Shown here: positions 2,438 through 40,326 of the stretch, one piece after another
How positions within the stretch are numbered: position 1 is the first letter of the stretch
Layout of the letters: every line of letters starts with the position of its first letter
IMG/VR virus record: IMGVR_UViG_3300032053_007138
Location: 1 to 46,394 of that record
Length of the DNA stretch: 46,394 nucleotides
Source of the DNA: a virus
Strand: one strand, 5' to 3'
Made by a program: the position numbers and the translations under genes
Notes under the pieces: generated by a model
The model's database searches: none
What the model was told of the DNA's origin: nothing
What the model saw: the letters and a program-made list of their open reading frames with translations, nothing else

Positions 2438-2439
2438 CT

Positions 2440-2643: not shown

Positions 2644-2645
2644 CT

Positions 2646-3895: not shown

Positions 3896-5045
3896 TCCGT
3901 ACTGGCAGAATAAGGCTGAGATGGTGCTCCTCGATAACTGCTGCACTATGAGTAAACGCGTGCAGTCGTATGTAGAGGGCGTGTACTCTCCTCTGGTCAA
4001 AGAGGGAAGAGGTAAGAATTTGATAATGGTGGATGAGGAGAGGAAATTCGACACAGTGTCTGGACTCGGGAGCAACTTATGGGACTGCACCAATAACTTT
4101 TCTCTCGAATGTGTAGAGATGGTGGAGCTGGCTGAGCTCATCCTCACCCGTATCCCCTATCACCACAAGCTCAAGTTTACTAAGACGGGGAGCGCAGCGT
4201 GTGAGGCTGCAGTACGCTACGCTCGTGCATATACTAAAAGAGAACGTATCGCTTATACGGGATATCACGGTACTTCTAACGTCTTCGTAAACTGCACTCC
4301 ACCCGCCCTCGGTACTGTGTACGAGAAGAGCCAGAAATTTGATACGATGGAAGAACTTATAGCGTTCGTGGAGTGCAAGCCCGGATTAGCGTGCGTCATA
4401 GTAGAACCTTTAGAGTTAGACCCTGTAGGCATGGAGGACCGGTTAAAGAGACTCCAGGCTGCGTGTAGAGCTGATGGGTGCCTCATGGTGTTCGATGAGA
4501 TTATCACGGGCTGGAGGTTCTTGAATTTCACTGTAGCGAACCGCTGCGGTATATACCCGGATATCTCGGTGCTCGGTAAAGCGCTCGGTGGGGGCTACGC
4601 GCTGGGGATCGTAGCTCTCACTAATTGCATAGCTGAGGGCTCCAAAGGGGTATTTATTTCGAATACTCACAACGGTGAGCAGTGCGCACTCAGAGCTGCT
4701 ATAGACATAGTAAAGAAAACTACCGACGAGCACATTTACCGTATGTTTGTGAAGTCCCGTGTCTTTCAGGAGCACGTAAACGCTATCAAGCCGGAGTGGT
4801 TCCAGTTAAAAGGGTACCCGGCACGGTACGTGTGGGAGTGCTCCTCAGATGACATGAAGGCTTTAATCTGGCAGCAGATGTATATCAAAGGCACTCTCTG
4901 TGGCACGGCCCTATTTCCGAAACTCTCATGGGACACAGCAGACTATGCACTCATTGAGCGAGATTTACGAAACAGTATTGAAGAGATTGAGAAAGGAGCG
5001 ACACTCCATGGCATCAAGCCAAGACCCTTCTTCCTCCGAACCTGA
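3876..5045 (+). CDS. Class III PLP-dependent aminotransferase (GSA-aminotransferase-like)
   Basis: 389 residues. TGSAACEAA (104-112) is the phosphate-binding turn, FDEIITGWRF (206-215) holds the Asp that contacts the PLP nitrogen, and VLGKALGGG (232-240) contains the Schiff-base Lys235. The fold is that of glutamate-1-semialdehyde aminomutases, whose relatives often act in nonulosonic acid and other surface-sugar clusters. It would transfer an amino group to a keto-sugar, for example the product of the dehydratase at 5178. The classical PseC/LegC aminotransferases belong to another class (DegT), so the exact step is uncertain. It starts inside the end of the methyltransferase gene. Confidence 0.82.
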   Translation: MVYPATNPYWQNKAEMVLLDNCCTMSKRVQSYVEGVYSPLVKEGRGKNLIMVDEERKFDTVSGLGSNLWDCTNNFSLECVEMVELAELILTRIPYHHKLKFTKTGSAACEAAVRYARAYTKRERIAYTGYHGTSNVFVNCTPPALGTVYEKSQKFDTMEELIAFVECKPGLACVIVEPLELDPVGMEDRLKRLQAACRADGCLMVFDEIITGWRFLNFTVANRCGIYPDISVLGKALGGGYALGIVALTNCIAEGSKGVFISNTHNGEQCALRAAIDIVKKTTDEHIYRMFVKSRVFQEHVNAIKPEWFQLKGYPARYVWECSSDDMKALIWQQMYIKGTLCGTALFPKLSWDTADYALIERDLRNSIEEIEKGATLHGIKPRPFFLRT

Positions 5046-5178
5046 TTGGGCAGGTATTCTTGCAGCCTCTATCGAAAAGCCTAAAGAAAATGAAGCGACG
5101 TATAATCCAAACGATGCTCCCGGTATCGTGCCTTTCGTGGATCGCGGTACTGATGGACCTCAACTCGCGGAGTACTGA
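5008..5178 (+). CDS. Small acidic hypothetical protein
   Basis: 56 residues starting at ATG 5008, behind AAAGGAG at a proper distance, overlapping the end of the aminotransferase by 38 bases. It ends in a TGATG overlap with the next start, so translation is coupled. The sequence is Ser/Pro/Asp-rich and lacks recognised motifs. A longer frame from 4900 has no ribosome site. Confidence 0.5.
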   Translation: MASSQDPSSSEPDWAGILAASIEKPKENEATYNPNDAPGIVPFVDRGTDGPQLAEY

Positions 5179-6119
5179 TGTCTAAGTATTTCATCACTGG
5201 ATCGGGAACTCTCGCTACTGAGCTCATAGCTCAGCTATATGATACAGCAGAGCGCATAGTAATCTATTCGAGAGACGAGGGCAAACATGCTCTATTAAAA
5301 GAGCGTTTCCCTGAGGGACCCCCAAGCGCTATGCGTTATAGGATAGGTGACATACGCGACCACGAGCGTATGGTCATAGCTATGAAAGACTGCGACACAG
5401 TAATACACACCGCGGCGATGAAAAGAATCGAGGTCTGCGACACAGAGATTTACGAGTGCATGAAAACTAATATCATAGGCTCGTACAACGTGGTGAGAGC
5501 ATGCGCTGAGGTTGGTATAAAGAAAGCCATGTTCATCTCTACTGATAAAGCGGCTGGCGGAGCGGTAGGGGCCTACGGGATCTCTAAGCGTTTCGCTGAG
5601 GAGTTGTTCGTACAGTCCAATAACTACAGCGAGACTGCGTACGCTGCGTGTCGGTACGGTAACATCAGGGGCTCCCGGGGATCTGTACACGGTTACTGGG
5701 AGCGACTAGCTGCTGAGGGTAAACCGTTGACCGTGACTCACCCTGATATGACTCGGTGGTTCTGGGATATAAAAGACGCAGCTCGGTTCGTACTGGATAG
5801 ACTGGTACACATGGAGCGTGGGGTGACGTACGTACCTAAAATGCCCTCCTATAAAATGATGGACGTGGCACGTGAGTATTCTCAAGATATCGTAATCACA
5901 GGGCTACGCTGCGGGGAGAAACTGCACGAGTGCATGATAGACGAGAACGAGTCTACACAGACCTACGAGACCGCGGACTACTATGCCATATACCCATACT
6001 CGCACCTGTGGGGTACTGTCAAACCAGACGGTGTGAGAGTGCCTGCAGGATTCACACTAAAATCCTGCAACCACATAATATCTGATCTGTTTCTGAAAAA
6101 TGAGGGACTAGCGCCATGA
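5178..6119 (+). CDS. PseB/CapD-like NAD-dependent sugar dehydratase/epimerase
   Basis: 313 residues, an extended short-chain dehydrogenase. The NAD-binding loop is TGSGTLA (7-13), a variant of TGxxGxxG, followed by GDIRD (57-61) and HTAAMKRIEVCD (77-88). The catalytic region is STDKA (121-125) with YGISK (133-137), matching the Asp-Lys and Tyr-x-x-x-Lys set of the UDP-GlcNAc 4,6-dehydratases PseB/FlaA1. These enzymes commit UDP-GlcNAc to pseudaminic or legionaminic-type sugars. It is probably an early step of the cassette, soluble in the cytoplasm. A C4/C5 epimerase role is the main alternative. Confidence 0.82.
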   Translation: MSKYFITGSGTLATELIAQLYDTAERIVIYSRDEGKHALLKERFPEGPPSAMRYRIGDIRDHERMVIAMKDCDTVIHTAAMKRIEVCDTEIYECMKTNIIGSYNVVRACAEVGIKKAMFISTDKAAGGAVGAYGISKRFAEELFVQSNNYSETAYAACRYGNIRGSRGSVHGYWERLAAEGKPLTVTHPDMTRWFWDIKDAARFVLDRLVHMERGVTYVPKMPSYKMMDVAREYSQDIVITGLRCGEKLHECMIDENESTQTYETADYYAIYPYSHLWGTVKPDGVRVPAGFTLKSCNHIISDLFLKNEGLAP

Positions 6120-6568
6120 TAAAACTCAGAGAGGTCACGTCAGCAGATTACAGATTTCTATACAGTCTCTTGGCTCAGAGAGATTCTACCATAAACATCT
6201 CTCATAAACGGATGCCTACCTATGAGCAGCACGTGCAGTATCTCTCACGTAGCCCGTATTTGTGGCACCGTATAATCACATTGAGTGATCTGCCGATTGG
6301 GATGTGCTACCGGACTATAGAGGGTTATGTGGGTATATTTTTGGATAGGACGTTTCAGGGATTCGGATACGGACCTACAGTTTTACAAATGATAATAGCA
6401 GAGCATCCTCGCTCACGTCTAATTGCAAATGTAAACCCATCCAACCGACGCTCTATGAGGATGTTTCGCAAAGCGGGCTTTAAATTCATTCAGATGACTT
6501 ACGCTTTAGAGCCTCTTTGCGATAATACTGAGGGTCTTCCTTCAGATGCTCCCCAGCCACCATCTTAA
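6116..6568 (+). CDS. GNAT-family N-acetyltransferase (PseH-like)
   Basis: 150 residues. The acetyl-CoA loop is seen as RTFQGFGYGP, a variant of Q/RxxGxG/A, followed by the common tail pattern NVNPSNRRSMRMFRKAGF. Its size and layout match PseH and similar enzymes that acetylate the amino group of a 4-amino-sugar nucleotide. It overlaps the dehydratase stop by four bases (ATGA) and closes the rightward cassette. Its last 83 bases are overlapped on the other strand by a small late gene. Confidence 0.8.
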   Translation: MIKLREVTSADYRFLYSLLAQRDSTINISHKRMPTYEQHVQYLSRSPYLWHRIITLSDLPIGMCYRTIEGYVGIFLDRTFQGFGYGPTVLQMIIAEHPRSRLIANVNPSNRRSMRMFRKAGFKFIQMTYALEPLCDNTEGLPSDAPQPPS

Positions 6569-10131: not shown

Positions 10132-11685
10132 TCACCTGTACGTGTTGTTCTTCTGGTACACATACAAACTCACATAAAGATCCGCGGGAGCAGTCGCCCC
10201 CACACTATCTATGTCCACGCTAAATGTAGTACCCATCGCCGCAGTAGTCTCTGAGTCTGCAGTCATGTTAATAGCCGACGCCGCTGTAGCCAGAGCGAGT
10301 TTAGTAGTAAACATCGTAGCCCCGGCTTTATTGATGTCCACCGTAGCCGTGTTCGCCTCGGTGCCCACTCTCGCGTCCGCACCGAAAACCTTCACCAATG
10401 TAGGAGCGTACCAGTGTCCCGCGATGTCGTTTGCTGCACCCAGAGTACCTGCGACAGCGAAATCTATAGACCGTGCTCTCTCACTGGAGTACTGATAACC
10501 CGTGTGTCCTGCGAGAGCGGCGTCACCGATCCAGTTGACAGTCACAGCGTCTGTAGACGCAGAGACCACACTCACCATGCCCATATAAATAGTAGCCGCG
10601 CTCCCGAGCCATTTGACCACAGAGGTACGATCATAGATGTACTGTTTATTGCCCGCAGACGCTGAGTCGAACACGTTTACAGAGTACGTCGCTGTCCTAT
10701 ACGCTTGACCTGTACTCCCCGCCATGGGCATCCAGTACGAGTTTGAGGTACCGGTGGCACCCGCAGCACCAGCTGTCCCTGCAGTACCAGTGATCCCCTG
10801 GACACCCGTGATGCCTCTGATACCCGTGATCCCGTATTGCCCCGTAATCCCGTACTGTCCGGTGATACCTATAGTGCCAGTAATCCCTTGGACACCTGTA
10901 ATAGCCTGAGCTCCCGTGATGCCTTGTATCCCAGTGATGCCCTGGAACCCCAATCCGGTGATCCCCATGGCACCAGTAATACCCTGAGACCCTCCGATGC
11001 CAGCTCCCGTAATCCCCTGCACTCCGGTGATACCCTCGATACCAGTGAGCCCCTGGAATCCTAGCCCAGTGATACCCTGCACGCCAGTGATCGCCTGAGC
11101 TCCCGTGATCCCGATAGTCCCCGTAATGCCCTGAGTACCCGTGATCCCGATAGTCCCTGTGGGGCCTTGTATCCCGTTTGCGCCTGTGATCCCGATGACA
11201 CCCGTAATCCCATACTGTCCCGTGATCCCAACCGTACCCGTAATCCCTATGACCCCTGTGGGGCCTTGGATACCGTTAGAACCGGTGATCCCGACCACAC
11301 CCGTGATACCGACGACCCCAGTGATACCGGGGCTCCCAGTGACTCCCATGATGCCTGTAGGGCTCGCTCCAGTGATACCGATGACGCCAGTGACCCCCAT
11401 GTACCCGGTGAGCCCTTGCATACCCGTCGCGCCCACGCCAGTGACGCCCTGGAGTCCCGTGACCCCATCTACCCCCGTAAATCCATAGGCCCCTGTGAGC
11501 CCGTACGCACCCGTCAATCCACGCACGCCCGTGACGCCCTGGATACCTGTGGCTCCAGCAGCTCCAGTGATACCCAAAGAGATGGTGTACTTCAGCCACT
11601 TGTTTTCAGTTTCGTAGTACTGATAGACAGAGCCGTTTATCGTGGTGTATAGTTGACCGCTGGTGGCGGATGTAGGGAATGACAT
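10132..11685 (-). CDS. Collagen-like fibre protein with Gly-X-Thr repeats
   Basis: 517 residues. Residues 1-35 are a small Tyr/Trp-rich head (SGQLYTTINGSVYQYYETEN). Residues from about 37 to 330 are almost wholly Gly-X-X triplets, mostly GITG, GVTG, GLTG and GPTG, so Thr fills the third position very often. The remaining 185 residues are a non-collagen beta domain, probably for trimerisation. Collagen-like stalks are known in phage fibres, and Gly-X-Thr collagen of Bacillus BclA is O-glycosylated. That makes this a candidate acceptor for the sugar made by this phage, by inference only. Confidence 0.82.
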   Translation of the reverse strand: MSFPTSATSGQLYTTINGSVYQYYETENKWLKYTISLGITGAAGATGIQGVTGVRGLTGAYGLTGAYGFTGVDGVTGLQGVTGVGATGMQGLTGYMGVTGVIGITGASPTGIMGVTGSPGITGVVGITGVVGITGSNGIQGPTGVIGITGTVGITGQYGITGVIGITGANGIQGPTGTIGITGTQGITGTIGITGAQAITGVQGITGLGFQGLTGIEGITGVQGITGAGIGGSQGITGAMGITGLGFQGITGIQGITGAQAITGVQGITGTIGITGQYGITGQYGITGIRGITGVQGITGTAGTAGAAGATGTSNSYWMPMAGSTGQAYRTATYSVNVFDSASAGNKQYIYDRTSVVKWLGSAATIYMGMVSVVSASTDAVTVNWIGDAALAGHTGYQYSSERARSIDFAVAGTLGAANDIAGHWYAPTLVKVFGADARVGTEANTATVDINKAGATMFTTKLALATAASAINMTADSETTAAMGTTFSVDIDSVGATAPADLYVSLYVYQKNNTYR

Positions 11686-18914: not shown

Positions 18915-20840
18915 TTATCCTCGTCTCGATCTGAGATTGTACTCGAGTTCCAGCTCTTTAATCTTGAACGTCTGATTCAGTCCGGTGACGTAAAACTTGA
19001 ACTTGATAATCTTGCCCACTGCATTGGGGAGTATGAGCCGTGACCGTTTACTCGTCACTCCGCCGCCCCACGTACCGATACCCCATTTGAATGTGCCCCA
19101 CATGATACCGCCACCGCTCAGAGGGACCGTGCCCGTCTGAGTAGCTCCACCGAAATCTACCACCCAGTCCACGTATAGATTCCAGTTACCTGAGCATTCG
19201 TGCGTGATATACAAAATTCTAAAGACTTTGGTATTGTCACGGTGATCTACGTTGTATCCCCCGAAACTCACAGCTGAGCTGATCGCTGCAGTCCAATAAT
19301 AGGGTGCTACTGCGCTCCCGTCGAGCGTGGTGCCTTTATCCAGTGTATAAACGTAGCCGTCGTACCCGCCACCGTACAGTGTCCCGTCACTCACAGCGAA
19401 ATTGTTCACGGCGGGGGCTGAGAGCTTGGTCCACACTCCTAGTTTAGTAGTATCAGCCCTAATGAAGTCGAACACATAAAGCTTATTGTTTGTGGACGCT
19501 GTAGAGCCTACGGGTAGAGCCACCCACACTTTATTATCGTATGTTATAGAGGCTGACTTGGAAAGCAGCGAGGGAGCCCATGTTTTCACGTCAGTATCAA
19601 TATCATAGCTGACAGCATCAGCCGCGAAGCGACCGTACTCACTATCCGCTGACGATCTCGCCAGATCCTGCCCAGTAAATGCGTAGGCACCAGTACGATT
19701 GATGTAAAATAGCAAATTCTTAAAGAAAGCTTGACTCTTATCGGATATAGCGCTATAAGCGGCAGGAGATTTGAAAACGTACCAGTTGTCATCATCCTGT
19801 ACTCCAGTCGAGTCTGCGATGTACAGCAAATACACAGCACCGTTGCCGTGACCGTCATTTTTATGGATGACGATCGCGTTTCCGAAGGCTTCGAGCCCGG
19901 ATATCTGATAACCGTCACCTTTTTCGACCTCTATGAAGGAAGTAGAGGGCCATGTGTCTACTTGACCGGCGTCACTATAGTATATCCGGTACGGATGAGC
20001 AGAATCTCCCGCGGCGAACATGCGTCCTCTGTAATAAACCATGAATCTCGCTTTAGGGGGAGTCCCCTGGTCCAATAACGCAGGTACTATCAGTCCATAA
20101 TCTGGATTATTGTCGAGTACAGCACTCTGGAGACCCGAAAGCGCGGTCACCAGCCAGTATCCCACCTGAGTAGCCGCTGTAGTCCTGTATAATTGCATCT
20201 CATTCACGCCGTACGACGTGGGAGCCAGCGGTATGTCAGTGAGCATCACGTCGTTTCCTGCACTGACTACAAGCGACGTGATGATAGGGTAGTAGTCTGA
20301 CTCTACACCAGCAGAATTGAGATACGTGAGCGCGTAGTTATAGGTACCCGAGAGTGCAGCACCCGCCTGAGGGGTACCTACTGCGACTCCAGCGGGAGGC
20401 GTGATACCGAACCTAAAGAAATTGGTGCCGTCATACTGGTAAGGCTGAGCGTACCCGTTCCCGAAAACTACTTTATCGTTCACTCCGAGAATCTTTACGT
20501 CTACCCCCGCTGTGTACGCAGCAGTAGAGCCTGAGATTATCGAGAATGACGTACCGTTCTGGTACCAGTAAGAGCCTCCGCACGCTGCTATGAGGATCCT
20601 GTCACCTGACGGGTCCAAATAAGTGGAGAGACCGTCTACCGGTGCACTCGCTATCTGCACCGAATTGAATTTAGTATATCCACGTGCAGTACGTACCGCC
20701 CCGAACTCGTCGAACATCACGTTTTGACAATCGGGAGACGCATTCAGAGGCGTGCCGATATCGGTGACTTTCGAATTAAGTCCTGCGTCGAGTGTCGGGA
20801 GCCTCATCGAGACTCTATACTGTACAGGTGCGAATGCCAT
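18915..20840 (-). CDS. Tail tube / stabilisation-type structural protein
   Basis: 641 residues, all beta in character. The start resembles the large tail proteins that follow the adaptor in podoviruses: LPTLDAGLNSKV, then SPDCQNVMFDEFGAVRTARG. Later repeated strands (GGYDGYVYTLD, DNKVWVALPVGS) suggest a beta-propeller. It overlaps the stop of the adaptor gene (TAATG), as expected for consecutive tail genes. It is comparable in place to T7 gp12 or P22 gp10; which of these is not certain. Confidence 0.7.
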   Translation of the reverse strand: MAFAPVQYRVSMRLPTLDAGLNSKVTDIGTPLNASPDCQNVMFDEFGAVRTARGYTKFNSVQIASAPVDGLSTYLDPSGDRILIAACGGSYWYQNGTSFSIISGSTAAYTAGVDVKILGVNDKVVFGNGYAQPYQYDGTNFFRFGITPPAGVAVGTPQAGAALSGTYNYALTYLNSAGVESDYYPIITSLVVSAGNDVMLTDIPLAPTSYGVNEMQLYRTTAATQVGYWLVTALSGLQSAVLDNNPDYGLIVPALLDQGTPPKARFMVYYRGRMFAAGDSAHPYRIYYSDAGQVDTWPSTSFIEVEKGDGYQISGLEAFGNAIVIHKNDGHGNGAVYLLYIADSTGVQDDDNWYVFKSPAAYSAISDKSQAFFKNLLFYINRTGAYAFTGQDLARSSADSEYGRFAADAVSYDIDTDVKTWAPSLLSKSASITYDNKVWVALPVGSTASTNNKLYVFDFIRADTTKLGVWTKLSAPAVNNFAVSDGTLYGGGYDGYVYTLDKGTTLDGSAVAPYYWTAAISSAVSFGGYNVDHRDNTKVFRILYITHECSGNWNLYVDWVVDFGGATQTGTVPLSGGGIMWGTFKWGIGTWGGGVTSKRSRLILPNAVGKIIKFKFYVTGLNQTFKIKELELEYNLRSRRG

Positions 20841-21484
20841 TAGATCATCCCCAGTTCCACATTCCTGTACGAGTCCTCTTCCTTGACAACGCGATAGAAG
20901 TCACCCTCAGTTTTCTGTCTCCAGTACGTGTACGCACGCACCATAGCCTGGTCCCACTGGTTCTTATAGAACTGGGACTGATCTTTATTCTGGTCTTTAG
21001 CGAATGCACGGTACAGTGCGTAGTCCTGTATCATCACATGGAAGTAGGCGGGTACACAAAACCCTGAGGACACGTATGTGCCTGGAGGAATCTGTACTCC
21101 CCATACATTTAATGGAGCGGAGTACGACGGTATAGGCCATAGACCTATCTGATCGTCATACTCGTAGTAGTGCATCGAGCGACCTATGGTGTAGAGTCCA
21201 CCGTAGGCCACTCTCTGGAGAGCGTCGAGATCTGTGGTGTCGATCTTCTTAAGCTTTACACTATCCCATGTCAGTCTGTCAATGTAATACGCTGCGGGGC
21301 GTGTGTACATAGACTGAGCTGTGACGGTGGTGGTGCTAGTCTGAAACTGAGTGCACTTGATATTCAGAGCTATCTCTTGCTCTGCCTGTCCCATGTATCT
21401 ATATAACTCAGCATCAGTCCAGAAACCTGCTGTAGGTTCATAGAGCTGATCTCTGATGCTCAACAGCACGTCACTGGGAGTCAT
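20840..21484 (-). CDS. Head-tail adaptor / tail tube A-like protein
   Basis: 214 residues. The N-terminus VLLSIRDQLYEPTAGFWTDA followed by LYRYMGQAEQEIAL is the typical helical start of P22 gp4-like adaptor proteins, which join portal to tail. The rest is mixed, with a Tyr/Trp-rich middle. It lies immediately before the large tail protein. This is the best-fitting role; T7 gp11-like tail protein is an equivalent description. Confidence 0.7.
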   Translation of the reverse strand: MTPSDVLLSIRDQLYEPTAGFWTDAELYRYMGQAEQEIALNIKCTQFQTSTTTVTAQSMYTRPAAYYIDRLTWDSVKLKKIDTTDLDALQRVAYGGLYTIGRSMHYYEYDDQIGLWPIPSYSAPLNVWGVQIPPGTYVSSGFCVPAYFHVMIQDYALYRAFAKDQNKDQSQFYKNQWDQAMVRAYTYWRQKTEGDFYRVVKEEDSYRNVELGMI

Positions 21485-22210: not shown

Positions 22211-22486
22211 TTATTCGCCGAACACGAATACGTTGAACGTGTCGCCTGCGGTGCATGTCGCAATAAGCAACATACCATTGGTGGCAGTACCGCCGGAAGC
22301 ACGGTTAAGCTGAGCATTGAAATTGGGCACCGCTGACGTAGCGCTGTACGCCATGACAGATCCACCGAGGATGACACTCAGGGGAGTTTGGATAGCACCG
22401 CTCGTAATCCCAGTCATAGTAGCAAGACCAAACGCTGCACGACGATCTCCGAACACTGTCTGAGTCCAATCACATGTGAGAGCCAT
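22211..22486 (-). CDS. Small putative virion protein
   Basis: 91 residues, uncharged and Thr/Ala/Gly-rich, opening MALTCDWTQTVFGDRRAAFG. It starts behind AGGAGGAT. It lies between the DUF115 gene and the 115-residue gene. Composition and position fit a head decoration or connector protein; the family is not recognised. Confidence 0.6.
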   Translation of the reverse strand: MALTCDWTQTVFGDRRAAFGLATMTGITSGAIQTPLSVILGGSVMAYSATSAVPNFNAQLNRASGGTATNGMLLIATCTAGDTFNVFVFGE

Positions 22487-22498
22487 AGCATCCTCCTA

Positions 22499-23659
22499 TT
22501 AGAAAAGTAACTTTGGTTTCGTAGGATCGCCCTTGACACAATCAGGTAGCATTTTGTGGTGCGAGTACATCGCCAGTAAATCCACCAGGGCCATTTGGAT
22601 TATCTGACGCATGTTGCCATTGGGGAAAGCCCCCAGTGTACCACCCTCTGTGCAGTTAATCATGAGCATGGGATTGTTCCCGTTGCCACCCATAGACTGA
22701 TGATTAAACCACGAACAGAAATTATTATACGAGGGCCACGTGTAGACCCTATTTCCAAAAACATCTGTGAGAGGTACTACACCCTGGAACTGCGCATCGT
22801 ACGGACTGTCCCATGAGTGGAACTTTCTCGTGTAGTCAAAAGCGAAGTCCGCTCCGATCATCACGATAGGCATTCCACCGAGTACAGCACGCGCATGATA
22901 ATACGCTGCTCCGAGTGCGTTCCCACCCACATTATAAAAGACCTCTAACGGACACAGTTTAGTGGACTGCTCCATGTACAGCATGTCCGGTACAGGACTA
23001 TTAAACCAGAGCACCCGGCCCTTCCAGCGGTCGACGAGCTCAGGCTTAGAGACTATACCCGCTATGAGTGTGGCGTCTTTGGTCGCATCCCAGTAGTATG
23101 ACTCAGGATGTTTCCCGCCTTGACTCATCTCAGGGATAGTGATATCCCCTGCGTCTAAATTGACATACCCATCACACGGTACATTCAGATCTGTAAAGTA
23201 CGCGAAATTATGCAGGCAGCTCACGAGACCGATCTCTTTAGGACGCCCCGCCAGATGGTGAGCATTCTTCTTAAGAGAAGGGCCTGAACCGGCCACTATC
23301 ACAGGCCTACACGCGTACTTCCCGTAATCCAGCATCGTGCTGTTATTGATCACGTCATGCGACTGAGCGTTGATACGTGTGTGGTCGAGCCATTTCGTCG
23401 CCCAATGAGACACAGTCACACTGTCGTTATTACACGACTGACCGTACAGGGACTCTTTAGGCTGAGGCGGCATATCGATCGTCTGCTGAAACGTGAGCAC
23501 CATGGGCACGTGAGTGCGCTTCATGATCTCTATCTGTTTCTGTAGCTCTGCGATCTGCCCCATGTACTGAGCAGCGACCGCGGGATCTACATTTACAGCA
23601 GCAGACATATCCACCATAGCTTTATCCACCACGTTCTCTGACACTACTACTTCGTCCAT
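22499..23659 (-). CDS. DUF115 / Maf-like glycosyltransferase-type protein
   Basis: 386 residues. Residues about 27-50 are a short coiled coil. The DUF115 core is clear: VIVAGSGPSLKKN (120-132), YVNLDAGD (165-172), GGNALGAAYYHARAVLGGMP (245-264), MIGADFAF (267-274) and NCTEGGTLGAFPNG (335-348). DUF115 includes the motility accessory factors (Maf) that attach pseudaminic, legionaminic or sialic acids to Ser/Thr of flagellin, and also MptE-like pterin enzymes. Its place among capsid and tail genes, in a genome that also encodes a nonulosonic-acid-like pathway, suggests it modifies a virion protein. That role is inference; the family call is firm. Confidence 0.8.
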   Translation of the reverse strand: MDEVVVSENVVDKAMVDMSAAVNVDPAVAAQYMGQIAELQKQIEIMKRTHVPMVLTFQQTIDMPPQPKESLYGQSCNNDSVTVSHWATKWLDHTRINAQSHDVINNSTMLDYGKYACRPVIVAGSGPSLKKNAHHLAGRPKEIGLVSCLHNFAYFTDLNVPCDGYVNLDAGDITIPEMSQGGKHPESYYWDATKDATLIAGIVSKPELVDRWKGRVLWFNSPVPDMLYMEQSTKLCPLEVFYNVGGNALGAAYYHARAVLGGMPIVMIGADFAFDYTRKFHSWDSPYDAQFQGVVPLTDVFGNRVYTWPSYNNFCSWFNHQSMGGNGNNPMLMINCTEGGTLGAFPNGNMRQIIQMALVDLLAMYSHHKMLPDCVKGDPTKPKLLF

Positions 23660-23754: not shown

Positions 23755-24240
23755 TTATCTCAGCAATACAGCCACGGGACCAGACGCGGTACCCGCGAGA
23801 GTACCGAGAGCACGCAGCATAACGCCAGCAGCCACGATCTGTGTGAGCGAGCTGGTATATGTGTACACTCTGAACGCTCCACCACCGTCGACGATGGTGA
23901 GATTATCACCAGCGACCACAGCGTTCGCATCACAGTATGCGTCGCATACTCCACGTGTGCATACCCATGCGTACGAGCCTGCTGCGCATGTCGCATTGTG
24001 GAGGATACCCAAGAACGCGACACTGGTATCAGCAGCAGTAGCGTAGGTCTTGACAAACGAGTAACCAGACACTGCTGTCATGATCACGGGTGCGCCCTTG
24101 TTGGCGATACCACCGTCATTGTACGCATAGATATACTCACGACCGTCTGCGAGACGGCGAGTACCTACCTGTACGCTGGGTGTGGCGGTGACTGCCGAAA
24201 CCGATTCCTCGTTGATTAACTTGTAAGAAAACGTAGACAT
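23755..24240 (-). CDS. Capsid decoration-type protein, paralogue B
   Basis: 161 residues, almost uncharged and Ala/Thr/Gly/Val-rich. It aligns along its whole length with the 24281 protein: ATPSVQVGTRR versus ATPSVQLGTYR, EYIYAYNDG versus EYIYMYNDG, and the shared phrase SGYSFVKTYATAADTS. A highly expressed structural protein right after the major capsid gene is probably a head decoration protein. Cysteines are unusually many for such a protein (VCTRGVCDAYCDAN). The duplication is old enough for the copies to have diverged. Confidence 0.65.
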   Translation of the reverse strand: MSTFSYKLINEESVSAVTATPSVQVGTRRLADGREYIYAYNDGGIANKGAPVIMTAVSGYSFVKTYATAADTSVAFLGILHNATCAAGSYAWVCTRGVCDAYCDANAVVAGDNLTIVDGGGAFRVYTYTSSLTQIVAAGVMLRALGTLAGTASGPVAVLLR

Positions 24241-24280: not shown

Positions 24281-24763
24281 CTACCTCATGTAGACCATGC
24301 AACCAGCAGTAGCTGCTGCAGTGGCCAGATTCATAGCACGACCGATGACGCCTACTGAGAACACACGTGTGAGCAATGAGGTCATTGTCACTACTCGAGC
24401 GCTCCCACCGCCGTCAATGATACGCATCTTGTCGCCCACCGCTACTGCAGCGGAGATCACGTAAAGATTTGCGAACCCTCGAGTGGCTACCCAGCCGTAT
24501 GATGCAGCTGCGCACGTCGCAGCTACGACACCCGCAAACACGCACGACGTGTCCGCTGCAGTGGCATAGGTCTTGACGAACGAGTATCCAGATGTACCTG
24601 TGAGTATCACAGGGCACCCAGCATTCACAGCAGCGCCGTCATTGTACATGTAAATGTACTCGGCGTTGTTTTCCTGACGGTATGTGCCGAGTTGTACCGA
24701 GGGAGTCGCCGTGGTAGCGGTGACCGGCTCGATCTCGACTTCTTTATAAGAATGTACTGACAT
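24281..24763 (-). CDS. Capsid decoration-type protein, paralogue A
   Basis: 160 residues from ATG 24763 behind AAGGAG; a GTG two codons earlier is possible. It is a tandem paralogue of 23755-24240 with the same length and layout. Only the capsid terminator hairpin lies between it and the major capsid gene, which suggests separate tuning of its amount. Decoration or stabilisation of the head is inferred from position and composition. Confidence 0.65.
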   Translation of the reverse strand: MSVHSYKEVEIEPVTATTATPSVQLGTYRQENNAEYIYMYNDGAAVNAGCPVILTGTSGYSFVKTYATAADTSCVFAGVVAATCAAASYGWVATRGFANLYVISAAVAVGDKMRIIDGGGSARVVTMTSLLTRVFSVGVIGRAMNLATAAATAGCMVYMR

Positions 24764-24803
24764 CTTCACTCCTTGTTAAGGCAATGGCAACCTTGGGACT
24801 AAA

Positions 24804-24835: not shown

Positions 24836-25750
24836 TTACGCAGTCAGAGCAGAGAAACGACCCTGGAGACGAGGATTGTCTCCCGCAAGTAAACCAGCCC
24901 AATAGATCTTGGCAGTTGCGACATCCTGATTCACGGGCTTGATGAAGGGCTCAAGCTTGAAGTCACGCTTGGAGTGCGTGTACAGCTTGACATAGTCTTC
25001 ATTGACCATGAACAAGTAAGAGGTCGGGCAACGGTTGTCAACGATCACGGGCACTCCACGGAACGTCACGTTGGTCCAACCAGCGTCGGCGACTTTGGAG
25101 TCCATGAAGCGCTGCTGAGGCTGGAGCAGGCTGAAGTAGCTGTCCCAGATAGCCTGCGTGGTCACCATCAGGGTCGGGTGCACGTTTCCGATTGTGCACA
25201 GACCGAACAGGCTCTCCATCTTGGGGATGGTGAGTGTCGTGGTCGTGCTGTCAACCTGAGCGTCCCACCATGTGTAGGTCGAGCTATCAATACCACCGTA
25301 GGTACGGCTGGTGCTGATCATAGTCTGCAGGCCTACGAGAGCTGCTGCGGAAGTACCGGTGTACACGTCAGCACCCATGGTGTAAGCGAGGGACTTTTCA
25401 GCGAGCTGGACCTTGGACTTGACAAAGCTGACCTTAGCAGCGTCACCGCTGTTCTTCAGCTCATCGAGACCAGTGATCGTGATATTGCCGTAGTACTGTT
25501 TCCAGACGTATTCTGCCGACGTCACCTGGTCATTCGGTGTAGTCGAGAGAGTGTCTGCACCCACGTAGCTGCCAGCTGCGGAAGTCACAGCGTACGCTAC
25601 GGGCATGAGTACACGCTCTCCACCGTCAAGTTTTTCCTGCTTGTCACGCAGACGAGACAGGAGCACGTTGCTCCTGAAAATGTTGTCGACGAGCTTGGGC
25701 TTGAAATACTTCTCTGTAATGCTAGATATTTCGTTGTAAGTGAGAGCCAT
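24836..25750 (-). CDS. Major capsid protein (HK97-type)
   Basis: 304 residues from ATG 25750; the longer in-frame start at 25765 lies inside the HNH gene. Position after scaffold and before decoration proteins, size, and features such as LTYNEISSITEKYFKPK, an Ala/Thr-rich centre and the C-terminal GVPVIVDNRCP fit HK97-fold capsid proteins. Its ribosome site (GGAG) lies within the last codons of the HNH gene. A strong hairpin follows its stop. Confidence 0.78.
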   Translation of the reverse strand: MALTYNEISSITEKYFKPKLVDNIFRSNVLLSRLRDKQEKLDGGERVLMPVAYAVTSAAGSYVGADTLSTTPNDQVTSAEYVWKQYYGNITITGLDELKNSGDAAKVSFVKSKVQLAEKSLAYTMGADVYTGTSAAALVGLQTMISTSRTYGGIDSSTYTWWDAQVDSTTTTLTIPKMESLFGLCTIGNVHPTLMVTTQAIWDSYFSLLQPQQRFMDSKVADAGWTNVTFRGVPVIVDNRCPTSYLFMVNEDYVKLYTHSKRDFKLEPFIKPVNQDVATAKIYWAGLLAGDNPRLQGRFSALTA

Positions 25751-25754
25751 GATG

Positions 25755-26189
25755 TCAATCTCCAATGTTAAGATAGTGAATCATCTTCGAAAGAATGCTT
25801 ACGTCTTCTCTGGCCAAACCCAGGGCTGTGTTACATCGGTGACACAAGAGTCCACGAATCTCACCCGTCCTGTGATTGTGGTCAACATGAAAACGTCCTC
25901 TGCCTCCTGCTTCAGGAGCCTTACAGATTTTACAAACATTCCCCTGTTCAAGTAGTTTTGCATCATACTGCTCGGTAGTTAGGCTGTACTTCCTCAGATT
26001 GTGCTCCCTCGTACACTCCGGCGAACCCGAATAAGAGCCTTTTTTTGACTCATTCTGATAAGCCTTCTCACACTTCTTACACGCGCAGAAACGGTAGTCC
26101 TTTTTCTTGTACCTAGGACTGTTTCTATGCCTGAGAGAGAACGAGGACTCTGGCTTCTCTACCTTACACCTGACGCACGTTTTCATCAT
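25755..26189 (-). CDS. HNH endonuclease of the endonuclease VII-like family
   Basis: 144 residues. Zinc and catalytic residues are all present: C86/C89 (VCKIC), HVDHNHRTG (101-109), and C116/C119 followed by N120 (LCHRCN). YSLTTEQYDAKLLEQGNVC is the usual lead-in of endonuclease VII/HNH homing-type enzymes. An extra Cys pair set (CVRC, CACKKC) lies at the N-terminus. It sits between scaffold and capsid genes, a known type of place for free-standing homing endonucleases. Its 3' end supplies the capsid ribosome site. A packaging or resolvase role is the alternative. Confidence 0.85.
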   Translation of the reverse strand: MMKTCVRCKVEKPESSFSLRHRNSPRYKKKDYRFCACKKCEKAYQNESKKGSYSGSPECTREHNLRKYSLTTEQYDAKLLEQGNVCKICKAPEAGGRGRFHVDHNHRTGEIRGLLCHRCNTALGLAREDVSILSKMIHYLNIGD

Positions 26190-27985: not shown

Positions 27986-29971
27986 TTATTGTCCTGGTCC
28001 TACTGGTGCGGCACCCATCTGGGCGTACGCGTCAGGTCCTTGTGGTGCTGGTTGTGCTGCTGCTTGCTGTGCTGCCTGCGCAGCAGCGTCAGCTTGTTTC
28101 TTCTGATCCATACGACGCATGATCTCGTCTTTTTTAGGAAATTCCACTGCGTCTAGTAAAGCTTCTTGATCGATAGCTTGAGCCTGGTATAGCTGAAACG
28201 CGAGGTTACTCCTACGCTGCTTCATAAATGGCAGACTCGTACCCGCTTGCACCTCTACATCGAACTCACCTTTAGAAGGGGCAGTCTGCTGCCACTCAGT
28301 TACCGCTACATACTGCCGTGTAGACGGCGAGAACTGGTATTGTTTAGAATTAGCCACGTAGCGCTTGGTCGGGATCATCTCTTGAGAGTCAGGGAATTGA
28401 TCAGGATACGGATTACCTTGCTGCTGCTGTTCTTCACGGCTAAAGAAAATCTCATAGAACTCAGGCCACTCCTGTGCCCCTGTGATACGTACGACTCTCG
28501 GTGACGTATAAAACTGTAGCATCCGTGATGTCACCATATAACCGAGTTGTATTAGAGACGCTTGTAGATTTCGTTCCTTTAAACGTATACGAGTTTGGTC
28601 CGCATCCTGTAGAGACTGTATAGCGCTGGCTGCCGTGACCCCGGTAGGTGTACGCCCACGAGATGTATCGTGCACACCGCTCTGCTGATCTATGAGTCGC
28701 ATGAGCAGGTTATAGAACTCGAAAACTTCGTTTGGTAGCGCTGGGGCCTGCTCACGTCTGACCTCAGTACCACGTTTCTTAGGGATGATCATTCCCACCT
28801 GATTGGTGAGTGACGCTGGGTTGACTCCACTATCGTCGTCGATGATCCATACCGCATTGGTCATCCTATTGCACCAGTCAGTGATCGTCGCGCCGACCTT
28901 ATTAATCAACTTCTGGGTTTCCATGATGGGGCCGACTTCACCCTCACCCCAGAAACTACCAGGTATCACTGTGTCAACGAATCTCACGTACGGGAATTTT
29001 CCATCAGCGTATGGATTGTCTACAGCCTGCAGGAGTACACGGCTGTCAGGGAGCACGGTGATTACACGACCACGCGGATACTTTTTCTTTAGGATGACTT
29101 TCTGCTCGCCCGTAGTTTTGTCTTCGATAGCCTGCTCATCGAGAGTCTCGTCACGCACCCAGCACTCGAATACTCTCACGACCTTTAGTTGCCCTGCTGT
29201 AGATGACGTGTTCTTGTCAGCGTCACCATTGCTCTGTAATGGTATGTCCTGATCGTTAGGAGACTGTAGCGTGACCTCACCGCTGAAAGATTTGCTCGTC
29301 TGCTTCTCAGCCTTGGGGTCTGTAGCAGTGCGGGATCCAGTAATGTACTGGGCCTTGTCAGGGAATTTTACTTTTAGCTCAGACGTAGGCATCCATTTCT
29401 CTTCGATCACGAACTTAGCATCTGTGAAATCTGTAGCATCAGCGTCTACGTAAATATTACGGGGGTCTATACGTGTGCACTCTATATCCCCGATACCATC
29501 GAGCTCATCGTTCCACACACATTTCATGATACCCGCAGGGAATATGAGAGAGTCGAGTATGCTCGTAGTGAGTACGAGCTGCATGTTCCGCCTCTCCCAC
29601 CAGTTCTCTACTAATTTCTGCATAGTATCAGCGAACTGATAGTCGGACGGCTCCTGAGGATTGACATCGAAATCGGGACTCGCGTCCGTCATGATCGGAA
29701 GGATAGTCTGTACCGTAGCACGTATGATATTCATGGACGGGGACGCTTTATAGGATGGTCTGCGCCAGTCCCATTGTGCTCCCTGATACCATTTCAACCA
29801 TTTGTCCCAGTCCTGATCGTAATTTTTTCTTACCTGTTTTCCCTGTGTGTAAAGACGTACAGCCAATTTGAAATCAGGGTCCTGGTCACCACGTGAGTCA
29901 TCTCTAGGCACTACCCTTGGAGCATCCTGTGGTGAATTTATATCTCTCAAACCTTCAAACTGATCTGCCAT
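27986..29971 (-). CDS. Portal protein
   Basis: 661 residues, the size of P22-like portals. Telling parts are KWYQGAQWDWRRPSYKASPS near residue 62, a TVQTILPIMTDASPDFDV segment, and INKVGATITDWCNRMTNA in the stem/wing region. The C-terminal 40 residues are a Gln/Ala-rich helix (AAAQAAQQAAAQPAPQG), as in the P22 portal barrel. It forms the twelve-fold ring through which DNA is packed. It follows the pentamer tract and terminator at 29992-30101. Confidence 0.82.
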   Translation of the reverse strand: MADQFEGLRDINSPQDAPRVVPRDDSRGDQDPDFKLAVRLYTQGKQVRKNYDQDWDKWLKWYQGAQWDWRRPSYKASPSMNIIRATVQTILPIMTDASPDFDVNPQEPSDYQFADTMQKLVENWWERRNMQLVLTTSILDSLIFPAGIMKCVWNDELDGIGDIECTRIDPRNIYVDADATDFTDAKFVIEEKWMPTSELKVKFPDKAQYITGSRTATDPKAEKQTSKSFSGEVTLQSPNDQDIPLQSNGDADKNTSSTAGQLKVVRVFECWVRDETLDEQAIEDKTTGEQKVILKKKYPRGRVITVLPDSRVLLQAVDNPYADGKFPYVRFVDTVIPGSFWGEGEVGPIMETQKLINKVGATITDWCNRMTNAVWIIDDDSGVNPASLTNQVGMIIPKKRGTEVRREQAPALPNEVFEFYNLLMRLIDQQSGVHDTSRGRTPTGVTAASAIQSLQDADQTRIRLKERNLQASLIQLGYMVTSRMLQFYTSPRVVRITGAQEWPEFYEIFFSREEQQQQGNPYPDQFPDSQEMIPTKRYVANSKQYQFSPSTRQYVAVTEWQQTAPSKGEFDVEVQAGTSLPFMKQRRSNLAFQLYQAQAIDQEALLDAVEFPKKDEIMRRMDQKKQADAAAQAAQQAAAQPAPQGPDAYAQMGAAPVGPGQ

Positions 29972-30569: not shown

Positions 30570-31964
30570 TTAAAGATCGTTGTACCAATCTAGCTGCTGT
30601 TTCGGTATCAGCTCTGCAGCCTGTGCTCTCAAAACTTTTGCTTTGCGCTCACCCGTGAGCCAGCTATATATGCCTACTAGTCCGTAGCGTACTTCATCAC
30701 AAACATCGTCTGCCCATGAGGTAGTCTTCAGATACTCCTCAGGCTTATTAGGATTGATCATCACGGATGGCACTGCTTCTTCATACTGAGTGTTGTATCG
30801 GTCTATATAGAAAACTTGTGGCTTGCCATTTCTCGCTTTGAACAGGTCCTGCATAATCATGCAGCCGTTTGCCCTAAAGTCGTTCGCCTGCTCGAACTGT
30901 ACGTCCTTCTTTTGCTTATCGTTCCAGAGCTCTGTAAACTCATCGATCGGCGCTCTCCATGTCAGCTCGTTAATCTTACTGGTAGTCCAGGCATCTCTGC
31001 CTACCCACACCGTCTTCGGGAAATATCCTTTAGTCGGCCTATGAGAACTGATCTGATCGTATATCTCTTTTGCATGGTCTCTGATACTCGTGAGTTTATT
31101 ACAGTACGTCATCATCCTGTGTATGCACCCATCTGGACTCACGTACCACAGCCCAAACGATGTGTGATGGCTCGCTCCGATATCCATACTGCCAAAGAGC
31201 CTCTGATGACTACTGGTCTCATCTATCTGGAACTCAGGCTCTAACATTAGATCCTTATTAAACTCTTGGAAGAAGCTGCCCTCCGCCAGGTCCCATGAGC
31301 CATCACGCCAGGCTCTACGCAAACGCTCAGGTAAAGAGTCCAAGTATGCAACGTACGCGGGGTCGTTGTCCGTGATCGCCGGGTTGTCATCAACTTTACT
31401 CTGGATGAAGATTCTGGTAGCGCCCGTTTGTGGGTCGTAGTACGTTTTTGAGTGTGCACAATCTACCCACCTCCGTTTTACCCAGCTATGGCCTTTACCG
31501 CCCGGGTTCGTGGTACAGAATACTTGAGGGATCAGAGTAGGGTCGGAGCTTCTTAGGGAGCCTAGTAACTTGAGGTAGTCTTCTTCGTTATCAAAAACGT
31601 CCGTGAGCTCTTCGATCAAAATCTTTTGATACTCTTGACCGAGGTACATGCCTACTGCTGACGGATCGCCCCAGTGACCGAGAGCTATTATCGCCCCACT
31701 CGGGAATCTGATTTCGGCAGGCATCGTAAAGATTTCTGCCATGCCGTGCATGAACACTCGGGCTTTAGATACCCAGTCTGCCAGGTCTTTGAAGCTCTTA
31801 CGTAGAACCAGTCCTCTGAACCGAGGGTTTGAGATATACTCAGGCTCTATCAGCCAAGCCATACCGCAGGCAGTCTTACCGCCACCTCTCGCACCACCGT
31901 ATAAGAGTTCTCTTTCAGAACGTGCGAGGGCCGCTTCTTGCCGTGGGAAAGGTTCCCACTTCAT
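30570..31964 (-). CDS. Terminase large subunit
   Basis: 464 residues. Walker A is GGARGGGKT (23-31), and the Walker B region is ILIEEL (115-120), with Glu at the usual Asp position. The coupling motif is CTTNPGG (150-156). The nuclease domain begins with SMDIGAS (Asp261) and has later acids (GRDAW, WADDVCDE). It is the ATP-driven packaging motor and cuts the DNA. It overlaps the small subunit stop by four bases. Confidence 0.92.
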   Translation of the reverse strand: MKWEPFPRQEAALARSERELLYGGARGGGKTACGMAWLIEPEYISNPRFRGLVLRKSFKDLADWVSKARVFMHGMAEIFTMPAEIRFPSGAIIALGHWGDPSAVGMYLGQEYQKILIEELTDVFDNEEDYLKLLGSLRSSDPTLIPQVFCTTNPGGKGHSWVKRRWVDCAHSKTYYDPQTGATRIFIQSKVDDNPAITDNDPAYVAYLDSLPERLRRAWRDGSWDLAEGSFFQEFNKDLMLEPEFQIDETSSHQRLFGSMDIGASHHTSFGLWYVSPDGCIHRMMTYCNKLTSIRDHAKEIYDQISSHRPTKGYFPKTVWVGRDAWTTSKINELTWRAPIDEFTELWNDKQKKDVQFEQANDFRANGCMIMQDLFKARNGKPQVFYIDRYNTQYEEAVPSVMINPNKPEEYLKTTSWADDVCDEVRYGLVGIYSWLTGERKAKVLRAQAAELIPKQQLDWYNDL

Positions 31965-33028: not shown

Positions 33029-33085
33029 GTGTCCTCCGTGGGTATGTGGATTGGGATGTTGATAAGATATATTATGTCCGACTCA

Positions 33086-33121
33086 TTTACAAGTGTTGAC
33101 AATGGTGTGTATATTAGGGGT
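33086..33121 (+). promoter_or_regulatory. Promoter for the rightward sigma-like gene (leaderless)
   Basis: TATATT at 33110-33115, with TTTACA at 33086-33091 (18-base spacer) or TTACAA one base later (17-base spacer). The transcript should start at about 33122, exactly the ATG. No Shine-Dalgarno sequence at a usable distance precedes this ATG, as AGGGG ends only one base before it. The element has the same TATATT-AG form as the promoters at 830 and 33771. Confidence 0.55.
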
Positions 33122-33676
33122 ATGAGACACGAGTATTTGACTCCAGTTACGTGCAAAAAAATATACCGTTTAACGAGGCACATCTGCCGCACGGACTACG
33201 GGATCGGAGATGAGGACGCGGCAGATATTTCGCAGGCTCTATTACTGGATCTCTTCAGGAAACGAGCCTGGGAGCGATACCCGGTAAGATTTGAGAGTTT
33301 GAGTTGGGCCAGTAAATGGATCCATTACGCCATCCAAAGGTGGTGTAGAGACCAAGGGCGGCAAGATCACGCTACGGAGTCACCGCTGTATGCCCCTGAA
33401 ACCCCTCAGGAGCCTATTAAAAGGTCGGACTACGAGACAGAGCTCCGTAAGATACCCCCAGCCTCCGTACCGATCCTACAGCTCAAACTATACGGGTACG
33501 CCGATAAGGAGATTCTGGGCGTGACTGGTATGCATAGAGACCTATACGACAAGACGCTCTTTAAGATGCGCTCCATACTCCGAGAGCAGTACCCAGGACT
33601 CAAAGCGCAACGCGCATGCACAGGTAAGCAGCCTCATTCCGACACTCCAGTATATGCACCTCCCCTCTGGGCCTGA
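33122..33676 (+). CDS. Sigma-factor-like protein (rightward)
   Basis: 184 residues from ATG 33122, which coincides with the expected transcript start; in-frame starts at 33029 and 33074 are alternatives without good ribosome sites. Region 2-like helices: EDAADISQALLLDLF and SWASKWIHYAIQRWCRDQGR. Region 4-like helix-turn-helix: VPILQLKLYGYADKEILGV and HRDLYDKTLFKMRSILRE. It is divergent from the other sigma-like gene and stands at the head of the rightward regulatory region. Likely a phage-specific transcription factor. Confidence 0.6.
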   Translation: MRHEYLTPVTCKKIYRLTRHICRTDYGIGDEDAADISQALLLDLFRKRAWERYPVRFESLSWASKWIHYAIQRWCRDQGRQDHATESPLYAPETPQEPIKRSDYETELRKIPPASVPILQLKLYGYADKEILGVTGMHRDLYDKTLFKMRSILREQYPGLKAQRACTGKQPHSDTPVYAPPLWA

Positions 33677-37959: not shown

Positions 37960-40326
37960 TCATTCATTGCTTTTATATGTGATCGCCCACGCAAAAATGT
38001 CACCGTTTGCTACTGTCATTGGAATATAACCCTGTAATGTATTCCCCACTACGGTAGTAGGCGGTAAAATCTTAAATTTTGTGTAATCTCCATTGTTAAT
38101 GCAAATTACGCCCGGGAAAAATCCTCCTATATTTACAGACGGTAGTACAGGTGGCGTGCTGTCTCCATCGCGTGTACTCATTGCACGTAGTGTGCACGGC
38201 CACCACATCGAGCCGGGATTTGTTACATCGCCGAAATCATTAATAATATCCGCATGCCAAGCGTACGCCGCAGGCACAGTTATCTCGTAATACGATCCCC
38301 CGCCAGTCGTCACCGTTAGTTTGCCCATCCAATGGACTGTATCTCCAGATTTTGTAAATTTACACGCGAGAGTACCACACGCACCCACGTCTGTAATCAC
38401 TGTGCAAGCGACTTTTTTAAGTATTGAGTAATCAGGTCCATTTATTGTACCTACATTTGTCAATGAAACAACTGCGTTTGCTGTAGATGTCGTCGGAAAC
38501 GCAATGTCGCGTGTCGCCCAAGCCACGTAATCTGTAAGATCGCAGGGGTCTGCGCTTGTGGTTGTTGATCCATGATATTTTTTCAGTACCTCCAGGTTTT
38601 TAGCAAAGTATAAATTATCGCGGGCAATGAGTCCTGCATAAAATCCATCCCAGGTGTCACCGTTGCCGATTTCCCCTGCCTCTCCAAATTTGCAGGTTGT
38701 CTGATCATACAAATTTGTAAATACAGTTTTCACTAGTGTACTGGTGACAACATCCGATTTTATGCCTTGCACTGTAATATTTTTAATCGACGCCGTGCCC
38801 GCTGTAGAGGCTCCTGCAATCGTAATCACCGGAGTGATACCATGAGTAACAACTCCGTTTATTGTTACATTTATCAAATGGTTGTTAGTTGTTGTGGCGG
38901 CAGAATTATCGAATCGAATGCCTTTATCATTTGTACAGTTTGGCAACGCAGCTTCGATCAATACATTAGTAATTACAGTATCCGCCATATGTATGGTGTC
39001 GGTGTTTACCATGTCAATAGCCATCGTTGTATGGCCAAAACCGTGAATGTTAGACAACATACTATTAGTAACGCTGAGATACAGCCCTGTAGTTCCAAGA
39101 TAAGTTTTTATTCCGTCGGCATACAAATTGTAAACATCGGTTATTTTGCAGCCGATGCCTGTCGTAACTGTCAAAACGTTCCGCAAGGAAACGTCATAGC
39201 AACTTGAAATTATTAATGCATTTCCTCCGGCACCGGTAAACCCAACATTCTCTATATGTAAATTATGGCAACCGGTAAAGGTAAGATCCGCTGCGCCGCG
39301 TGTGATATACGAGCCATACTGATAACTCGTACCAACACGTGTTGGAGCATTATCTCCTATGATAGATAGACCAATTTCGCTTGAAAATGTTGTAGCGGCT
39401 GTGCACGCATATCCACGATTGCGCAACCGCACTATACCCCCGGTAGAAACAATTGATACAATAGCATAGGCCAAATCCTCGGATGTAAACCACTCTGGAC
39501 GGACATAATCACACGTTAGTTGAGGGTAATAAGCAAAACCTTGAGGCACAAAATGTACAGTGTAATCGTTCTCCTCAATTATCGGCTTGAGCTGCGGATT
39601 GATATTATATCCAGTCCAATCGAGGCACGCCGACGGCTCCATAATAACTTGTGATACTGGGTTTATAGTTGCAGTGAGCTTATATAACCCCGCACAAATC
39701 TTAATGGGTAATAACTCGGGGTGCCCCGTATCTGACGCATAGGCATCAGCGTATCCGATCGCGGTATGCGCATCTGTCGCACCATCAGCCAAAGCACCAA
39801 ACCATCGTATGTCAACAGCACCATCAAATTGTCTCATCCATCGGCCTGTGGCGGTATCGGTGCTCTTGATGTTAATGCCTTTGTCGTCAGTAGTCGTGGA
39901 CGCAGCTTGCCACAGGAATACCCCACCACCTTGATCTCCTGGGGTCGTGTACCCGGCGACAATTACTGCGTATGCTGAGCCACCGGTTAATGCGCGAAGC
40001 GCAGCAATATTGTCCACGGAAACGACTTGTGTACCCCCGGCCCCGGAGCCCTGTATGTCGTCGATCGTCCACATCGTGTTGCCACTCGCATCGGTCAACA
40101 TAAGTTTATATGAGTATGTTGCACCCAGCCACACGCCCGTGGCGGGTACGTATCCGCCCGCGTCGAGTATTACGGGGTTAGGGTTGGCGACAGTGGCGGC
40201 TTTAGTGGTATAGGTAGCCTGTGCCGTGGTTGTGTTGGCCTGGTAACTGTAAAGCTTGCCCCCGGCGAGCGGACGTCCGTCCATGTCAAAAAATTGCTGG
40301 CGAGGGACTGGAGAGAGTACGGCCAT
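37960..40326 (-). CDS. Tailspike with head-binding domain and beta-helix
   Basis: 788 residues. The start VPRQQFFDMDGRPLAGGKLY, then a small beta domain to about residue 95, is a typical particle-binding domain. WFGALADGATDAHTAIGYAD (around 175) is the pectate-lyase-3 entry sequence and is followed by a long run of short-strand beta-helix rungs (IENVGFTG, ISSCYDVSLRNVL, NLYADGIKTY). It probably cuts or binds a host surface polysaccharide. It replaces, in the second module, the fibre set of the first. The C-terminal 150 residues may form the trimer tip. Confidence 0.82.
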   Translation of the reverse strand: MAVLSPVPRQQFFDMDGRPLAGGKLYSYQANTTTAQATYTTKAATVANPNPVILDAGGYVPATGVWLGATYSYKLMLTDASGNTMWTIDDIQGSGAGGTQVVSVDNIAALRALTGGSAYAVIVAGYTTPGDQGGGVFLWQAASTTTDDKGINIKSTDTATGRWMRQFDGAVDIRWFGALADGATDAHTAIGYADAYASDTGHPELLPIKICAGLYKLTATINPVSQVIMEPSACLDWTGYNINPQLKPIIEENDYTVHFVPQGFAYYPQLTCDYVRPEWFTSEDLAYAIVSIVSTGGIVRLRNRGYACTAATTFSSEIGLSIIGDNAPTRVGTSYQYGSYITRGAADLTFTGCHNLHIENVGFTGAGGNALIISSCYDVSLRNVLTVTTGIGCKITDVYNLYADGIKTYLGTTGLYLSVTNSMLSNIHGFGHTTMAIDMVNTDTIHMADTVITNVLIEAALPNCTNDKGIRFDNSAATTTNNHLINVTINGVVTHGITPVITIAGASTAGTASIKNITVQGIKSDVVTSTLVKTVFTNLYDQTTCKFGEAGEIGNGDTWDGFYAGLIARDNLYFAKNLEVLKKYHGSTTTSADPCDLTDYVAWATRDIAFPTTSTANAVVSLTNVGTINGPDYSILKKVACTVITDVGACGTLACKFTKSGDTVHWMGKLTVTTGGGSYYEITVPAAYAWHADIINDFGDVTNPGSMWWPCTLRAMSTRDGDSTPPVLPSVNIGGFFPGVICINNGDYTKFKILPPTTVVGNTLQGYIPMTVANGDIFAWAITYKSNE

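Follow-up and report, generated by a model that had tools for sequence, protein, structure and literature searches.

A predicted Maf-like nonulosonate transferase encoded between the capsid and adaptor genes of uncultured P22-like podoviruses

Maf flagellin glycosyltransferases are built from a Rossmann-like N-terminal domain, a central Maf_flag10 domain, which is Cst-II-like, and a helical C-terminal domain (PMC11339370). The canonical enzyme, 666 aa long in PDB entry 5mu5, is found in a flagellin or flagellar gene setting. The DUF115 core fold of the central domain is also seen in MptE, the archaeal 6-hydroxymethylpterin diphosphokinase (8sd5), and MptE-like proteins are annotated in uncultured Caudovirales phages. 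Among phages, mycobacteriophages are known to have glycosylated virions (PMC12363180, PMC12619734, PMC11652166), and O-glycosylation is described for those of Che8, Corndog and Myrna (work of Freeman 2023, summarised in PMC12363180 and PMC12619734); the available text of these accounts mentions no DUF115 enzyme or nonulosonate pathway. In viromes, 126 neuB hits have been listed (PMC3877843). Our literature search, which took in few subscription journals, found no report of a DUF115 transferase together with nonulosonate synthesis in a phage.

Here we analyse an IMG/VR virus record of 46,394 nucleotides (the window) in which the gene at 22499–23659 (− strand, ATG start) encodes a DUF115 protein of 386 aa, predicted to be a Maf-like nonulosonate transferase. 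It resembles Maf in its PF01973 domain, which corresponds to the central Maf_flag10 domain, in having Maf as its best structural match, and in the nonulosonate pathway present in the same genome. However, the phage protein is far shorter (relatives are mostly about 335–390 aa) and is without the full N- and C-terminal domains, and its gene lies in a viral late block between capsid and tail genes, with no flagellin. As it has neither the three-domain build nor the flagellar setting, we do not file it as a canonical Maf. The likeness to the mycobacteriophages would be that a phage uses its own transferase on its own capsid or tail proteins; the window phage differs in that it also encodes donor synthesis.

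The DUF115 protein and its place in the late block

The 22499–23659 protein belongs to the DUF115/PF01973 superfamily, matching PF01973 (DUF115/MptE-like) over residues 114–275 with 53.9 bits, above the curated cut-off of 34.6. A PHROGs search gave no usable family, and single-sequence searches found nothing in GenBank phages (tblastn), viral contigs or PDB chains; relatives were reached via the capsid protein only (66 loci). An alignment of 33 viral homologues yielded an AF2 model with a pLDDT of 90.6 and a pTM of 0.84, the single-sequence prediction having a pLDDT of 29. Three motifs, GxGP(S/H)L, FHxWxSxYD and N(C/A/S)(T/S)EGG, are kept in all 33 homologues, which puts the DUF115 observation beyond chance. 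A hydrophobic C-terminal (L/I)(L/M)F end (LLF, ILF) was seen in 32 of the 33, resembling a docking or assembly signal.

The earlier note had suggested a structural comparison with Maf and MptE, and this comparison, a whole-fold search with moderate scores, placed Maf closer. In Foldseek against the PDB, Maf 5mu5 ranked first (E 1.1e-9, 313 columns), with a moderate TM-score of 0.45 by query length, followed by MptE 8sd5 (E 2e-4, 224 columns) and then by the sialyltransferase ST8SiaIII (E 6e-4). The match to ST8SiaIII is weak in fold, and a sequence relationship of the phage protein to ST8SiaIII or Cst-II is undetectable. When the alignment profile was searched against PDB sequences, Maf was the only significant match (E 1.5e-4). 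In the viral structure library, the best matches were uncultured Caudovirales phage proteins annotated as MptE-like but assigned no function, with TM-scores up to 0.76 at 10–15% identity. The Pfam family name and the second rank of 8sd5 would suit an MptE-type pterin diphosphokinase, a reading which we regard as extremely improbable: the Maf match is both better and longer, Maf alone is recovered by profile, and the conserved gene company is that of sugar biosynthesis, with no pterin gene seen nearby. An MptE would be a short single-domain protein with the archaeal HPPK as its best match, which does not describe the phage protein. We judge the 22499–23659 product to be a predicted, virus-specific Maf-like nonulosonate transferase for virion proteins.

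The position of the gene among capsid and tail genes, as described in the earlier note, was borne out: within a − strand late block, the major capsid protein gene lies on one side of it and the head-to-tail adaptor gene on the other. This block comprises terminase subunits (terminase at 30570–31964), a P22-like portal (27986–29971), the major capsid (head) protein used as position marker (24836–25765; phrog_9953, E 1.5e-61), an SU10-type adaptor (20840–21484) and an internal virion protein (18915–20840), all on the − strand. Past DUF115 towards the adaptor, the − strand ORFs follow in the order 22211, 21851, 21488 and then the adaptor itself. The late block, along with a depolymerase-like tail spike (37960–40326) and a protein of DNA-ejection type, indicates a short-tailed P22-like phage. 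A search of the window for terminal repeats found none. On the + strand, the ORF at 33029–33676, whose start adjoins the − strand block, shows a weak resemblance to sigma-70 region 2 (E 0.007) and is possibly a phage sigma-like factor.

PF01973 is carried by 35 of 50 capsid relatives (34 of 50 over the cut-off), again between the capsid and adaptor genes. Scanning viral contigs with the DUF115 alignment gave at least 179 relatives (80 kept), and a scan of 84,980 cellular genomes gave a single one, on a 3.5-kb contig (L226:1-3494) in an Actinomycetota MAG with no prophage context. The 91-aa neighbour follows the DUF115 gene there too, hence this contig is itself viral in character and the family as a whole viral; the MAG offers a weak host hint. 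Divergence of DUF115 correlates with that of the portal (r 0.85), NeuB (0.84), cytidylyltransferase (0.84) and capsid (0.74), and its tracking of portal and capsid points to a vertically inherited core gene. Judged from these sequences, the DUF115 gene is no stray insert: a large lineage of uncultured P22-like podoviruses has it as a core gene.

Donor pathway genes and their inheritance with DUF115

The earlier note had also claimed a donor-type pathway in the same virus. Its genes are present on the + strand at 1225–6568, and across relatives they are gained and lost with DUF115. The first is a NeuB-family synthase (1225–1989; PF03102, 90.1 bits), a short form without the SAF domain, which retains the GxSDHS and EKH metal-site motifs and has pseudaminic acid synthase 8h2c and SpsE 1vli as its best PDB matches. 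It is followed by a Gfo/Idh/MocA oxidoreductase (1778–2437; PF01408, 34.5 bits) conserved in both subclades, a cytidylyltransferase which is a CMP-sugar synthetase candidate (2640–3269; PF02348, 30.2 bits against a cut-off of 22.6; PDB 6oew, E 4e-12), and a methyltransferase (3260–3895; PF08241, 23.9 bits) which is not generally conserved, being present in one other record of our matrix. The run continues with a conserved class-III aminotransferase (3876–5045; PF00202, 63.3 bits), a PseB-like UDP-GlcNAc 4,6-dehydratase (5178–6119; PF02719, 229 bits; PDB 2gn4, a UDP-GlcNAc C6 dehydratase, E 6.8e-53) and a GNAT acetyltransferase (6116–6568; PF13302, 32.9 bits) found in the window's subclade only (G000, G001, G055, G058, G071 and G126).

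Compared with the canonical pseudaminic/legionaminic pathway, the dehydratase, NeuB and cytidylyltransferase are present, the aminotransferase is of class III rather than DegT, the GNAT is confined to one subclade and MocA is extra; no PseG/NeuC-type hydrolase was found. The other subclade arranges the five-enzyme core differently: its dehydratase, MocA, cytidylyltransferase and aminotransferase genes form one run and NeuB lies apart, near terL. Both NeuB and the remaining pathway genes are kept despite their separate sites. The NeuB proteins of the window's subclade (window 1225–1989; L132, L152 and L261–L263) are about 190–255 aa and have no SAF domain, which is retained by many relatives of the other subclade, hence the sugar substrate may differ.

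NeuB was detected in 18/51 and 16/39 records, many of them fragments. Cytidylyltransferase and dehydratase occurred in an identical set of 19 of the 48 long records, all DUF115-positive, and in none of nine DUF115-negative records. Five genes (NeuB, cytidylyltransferase, PseB-like dehydratase, MocA and class-III aminotransferase) were all present in 12 of 14 DUF115 records of at least 33 kb. One exception, G063, looked like a DUF115 phage lacking the sugar genes, but its contig breaks off within the fibre gene, and these genes would come next. A Fisher test on DUF115/pathway co-occurrence gave p of about 0.002–0.005; however, most records are fragments and are related by descent, so neither this value nor the counts are independent evidence. 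A reverse test, with contigs picked by cytidylyltransferase alone, added 20 new records of the lineage, with DUF115 in 17 and NeuB in 19; of the three without DUF115, two end before its place and the third is G097. NeuB alone is not diagnostic, as 491 viral contigs have relatives of it and several unrelated phages carry NeuB without DUF115. In G122 (L449:2819-5461), a phage of 64 kb whose capsid protein is related, two DUF115 paralogues directly follow the capsid gene and NeuB is located elsewhere.

The second exception is G068, the one near-complete DUF115 phage that lacks NeuB: its cytidylyltransferase and dehydratase are lost as well, and of the aminotransferase only a remnant is left. Beside its terL, which is NeuB's place elsewhere, are genes for a ParB-like protein, an FkbM methyltransferase and a Tet/JBP oxygenase (L265:8427-10509), possibly reflecting a switch to a DNA modification route. 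The oxygenase, the DNA methyltransferases of some relatives and the existence of virus-encoded DNA glycosyltransferases (cited in PMC12619734) could be read as signs that the DUF115 protein glycosylates modified phage DNA. We consider this very unlikely, since Tet/JBP and C5-cytosine methylase were each detected in one of 48 records and the window has neither.

Retention of DUF115 in G068 without these three sugar genes would also fit a structural head-completion protein that keeps a transferase fold in degenerate form and catalyses nothing, in which case the nonulosonate genes would serve another end. The fixed late-block place, the single copy per genome and the (L/I)(L/M)F end, which would suit a docking peptide, agree with such a role. 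Sister phages without DUF115 (G031–G037 and G044) speak against it: their terminase, portal, capsid, adaptor and internal virion protein are shared with the DUF115 phages, yet they have no DUF115, neither of the flanking families and none of the pathway genes. Phages that still build the same capsid and portal have lost DUF115 along with the sugar genes. As the invariant motifs also include one of nucleotide-binding type, GxGP(S/H)L, we hold a purely structural role to be unlikely and retain that of a transferase.

In our reading, no other single observation speaks as strongly for DUF115 acting jointly with the donor genes as the gene order of an unrelated phage, G119, whose terminase belongs to another family (Terminase_3) and whose portal is barely related to that of the window lineage. 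On one strand it carries, in an unbroken run, terL, NeuB, dehydratase, aldo-keto reductase, cytidylyltransferase, class-III aminotransferase, DUF115 and portal. Its DUF115 protein of 477 aa is homologous to the window family along the full length of the domain (hhalign 98.7%, E 4e-16), has the NCTEGG motif in common with it, and finds Maf as its only PDB match (E 8e-7).

Candidate acceptors on the virion

DUF115 is flanked by small proteins which are candidate acceptors. Upstream are a head-region protein called decoration-like (23755–24240, − strand, family A2) and its paralogue (24281–24769, − strand), which is 54% identical to the 23755 ORF in A2 and has the same HMM match set; both are related proteins of about 160 aa. 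No Pfam or PDB identity and no clear PHROG was found for this family. Downstream is a Thr-rich protein of 91 aa (22211–22486, − strand, family A3; Thr 14.3%, DEKR 7.7%), a candidate acceptor or helper. The upstream family adjoins DUF115 in 73 of 74 records, with a median gap of 51 nt, and the downstream family in 71 of 74, with a median gap of 12 nt. Ser and Thr together make up 20–21% of the flanking proteins versus 16–17% of the capsid, adaptor and internal protein, and charged residues 11–12% versus 17–23%.

The earlier note had favoured collagen-like fibres as acceptors. The Gly-X-Thr collagen-like ORFs were confirmed, with 15.7% Thr in 10132–11685, but among DUF115 phages such repeats were found in the window and a small number of relatives, each belonging to the window's subclade. 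None were found in the other subclade, which keeps DUF115 and the pathway; the fibres are therefore not the general or main acceptor, being absent from most DUF115 phages, and may be an extra acceptor in the window phage. The closest relative has a third 23755 homologue (L002:3897-4409), which itself bears Gly-X-Thr collagen-like repeats and so ties the flanking family to them. Co-conservation, composition and joint loss with DUF115 lead us to propose that the flanking proteins would be better acceptor candidates than the collagen-like fibres.

The sugar could instead be placed on the host surface, for example against reinfection. Phage-encoded surface modification is known in temperate phages (background in PMC12619734), and the depolymerase-like tail spike implies that surface sugars matter to this phage. 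We nevertheless find this improbable in view of the late structural block location, the co-conservation with two particle-region protein families, and the single relative in cellular genomes, itself outside any prophage context. Moreover, among window ORFs of at least 190 aa no polysaccharide polymerase, flippase or other glycosyltransferase family was matched.

Proposed role of the transferase

With moderate confidence, we favour the explanation that the DUF115 protein transfers a phage-made CMP-nonulosonate to Ser/Thr of virion proteins, likely the products of the flanking genes. A Maf-related gene beside the shell gene and the near-constant presence of sugar-synthesis genes suggest that these phages probably sugar-coat their own particles. 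The dehydratase, MocA oxidoreductase, aminotransferase, NeuB and cytidylyltransferase would make a CMP-activated nonulosonic acid late in infection, and the DUF115 enzyme, whose presumed substrates are translated on either side of it, would attach this sugar to Ser/Thr either before the head is assembled or as it forms. The acceptors would be the 23755–24240, 24281–24769 and 22211–22486 products rather than the collagen-like fibres. The coat may serve in shielding from host factors, in stability in water, or in attachment.

If true, the glycosylation system would be self-contained and would differ in kind from that of the mycobacteriophages, would be carried out by small transferases without the flagellar Maf domains, and would account for neuB genes in viromes. 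The proposed role would replace the pterin-kinase name which databases wrongly put on the viral DUF115 family, and two new small acceptor candidates are named. More broadly, we give even chances to a widespread uncultured podovirus lineage having a complete, self-contained system for nonulosonate protein glycosylation within its morphogenesis, which would have evolved apart from flagellar Maf, would be found also in at least one unrelated lineage, and would place sialic-acid-like sugars on capsids.
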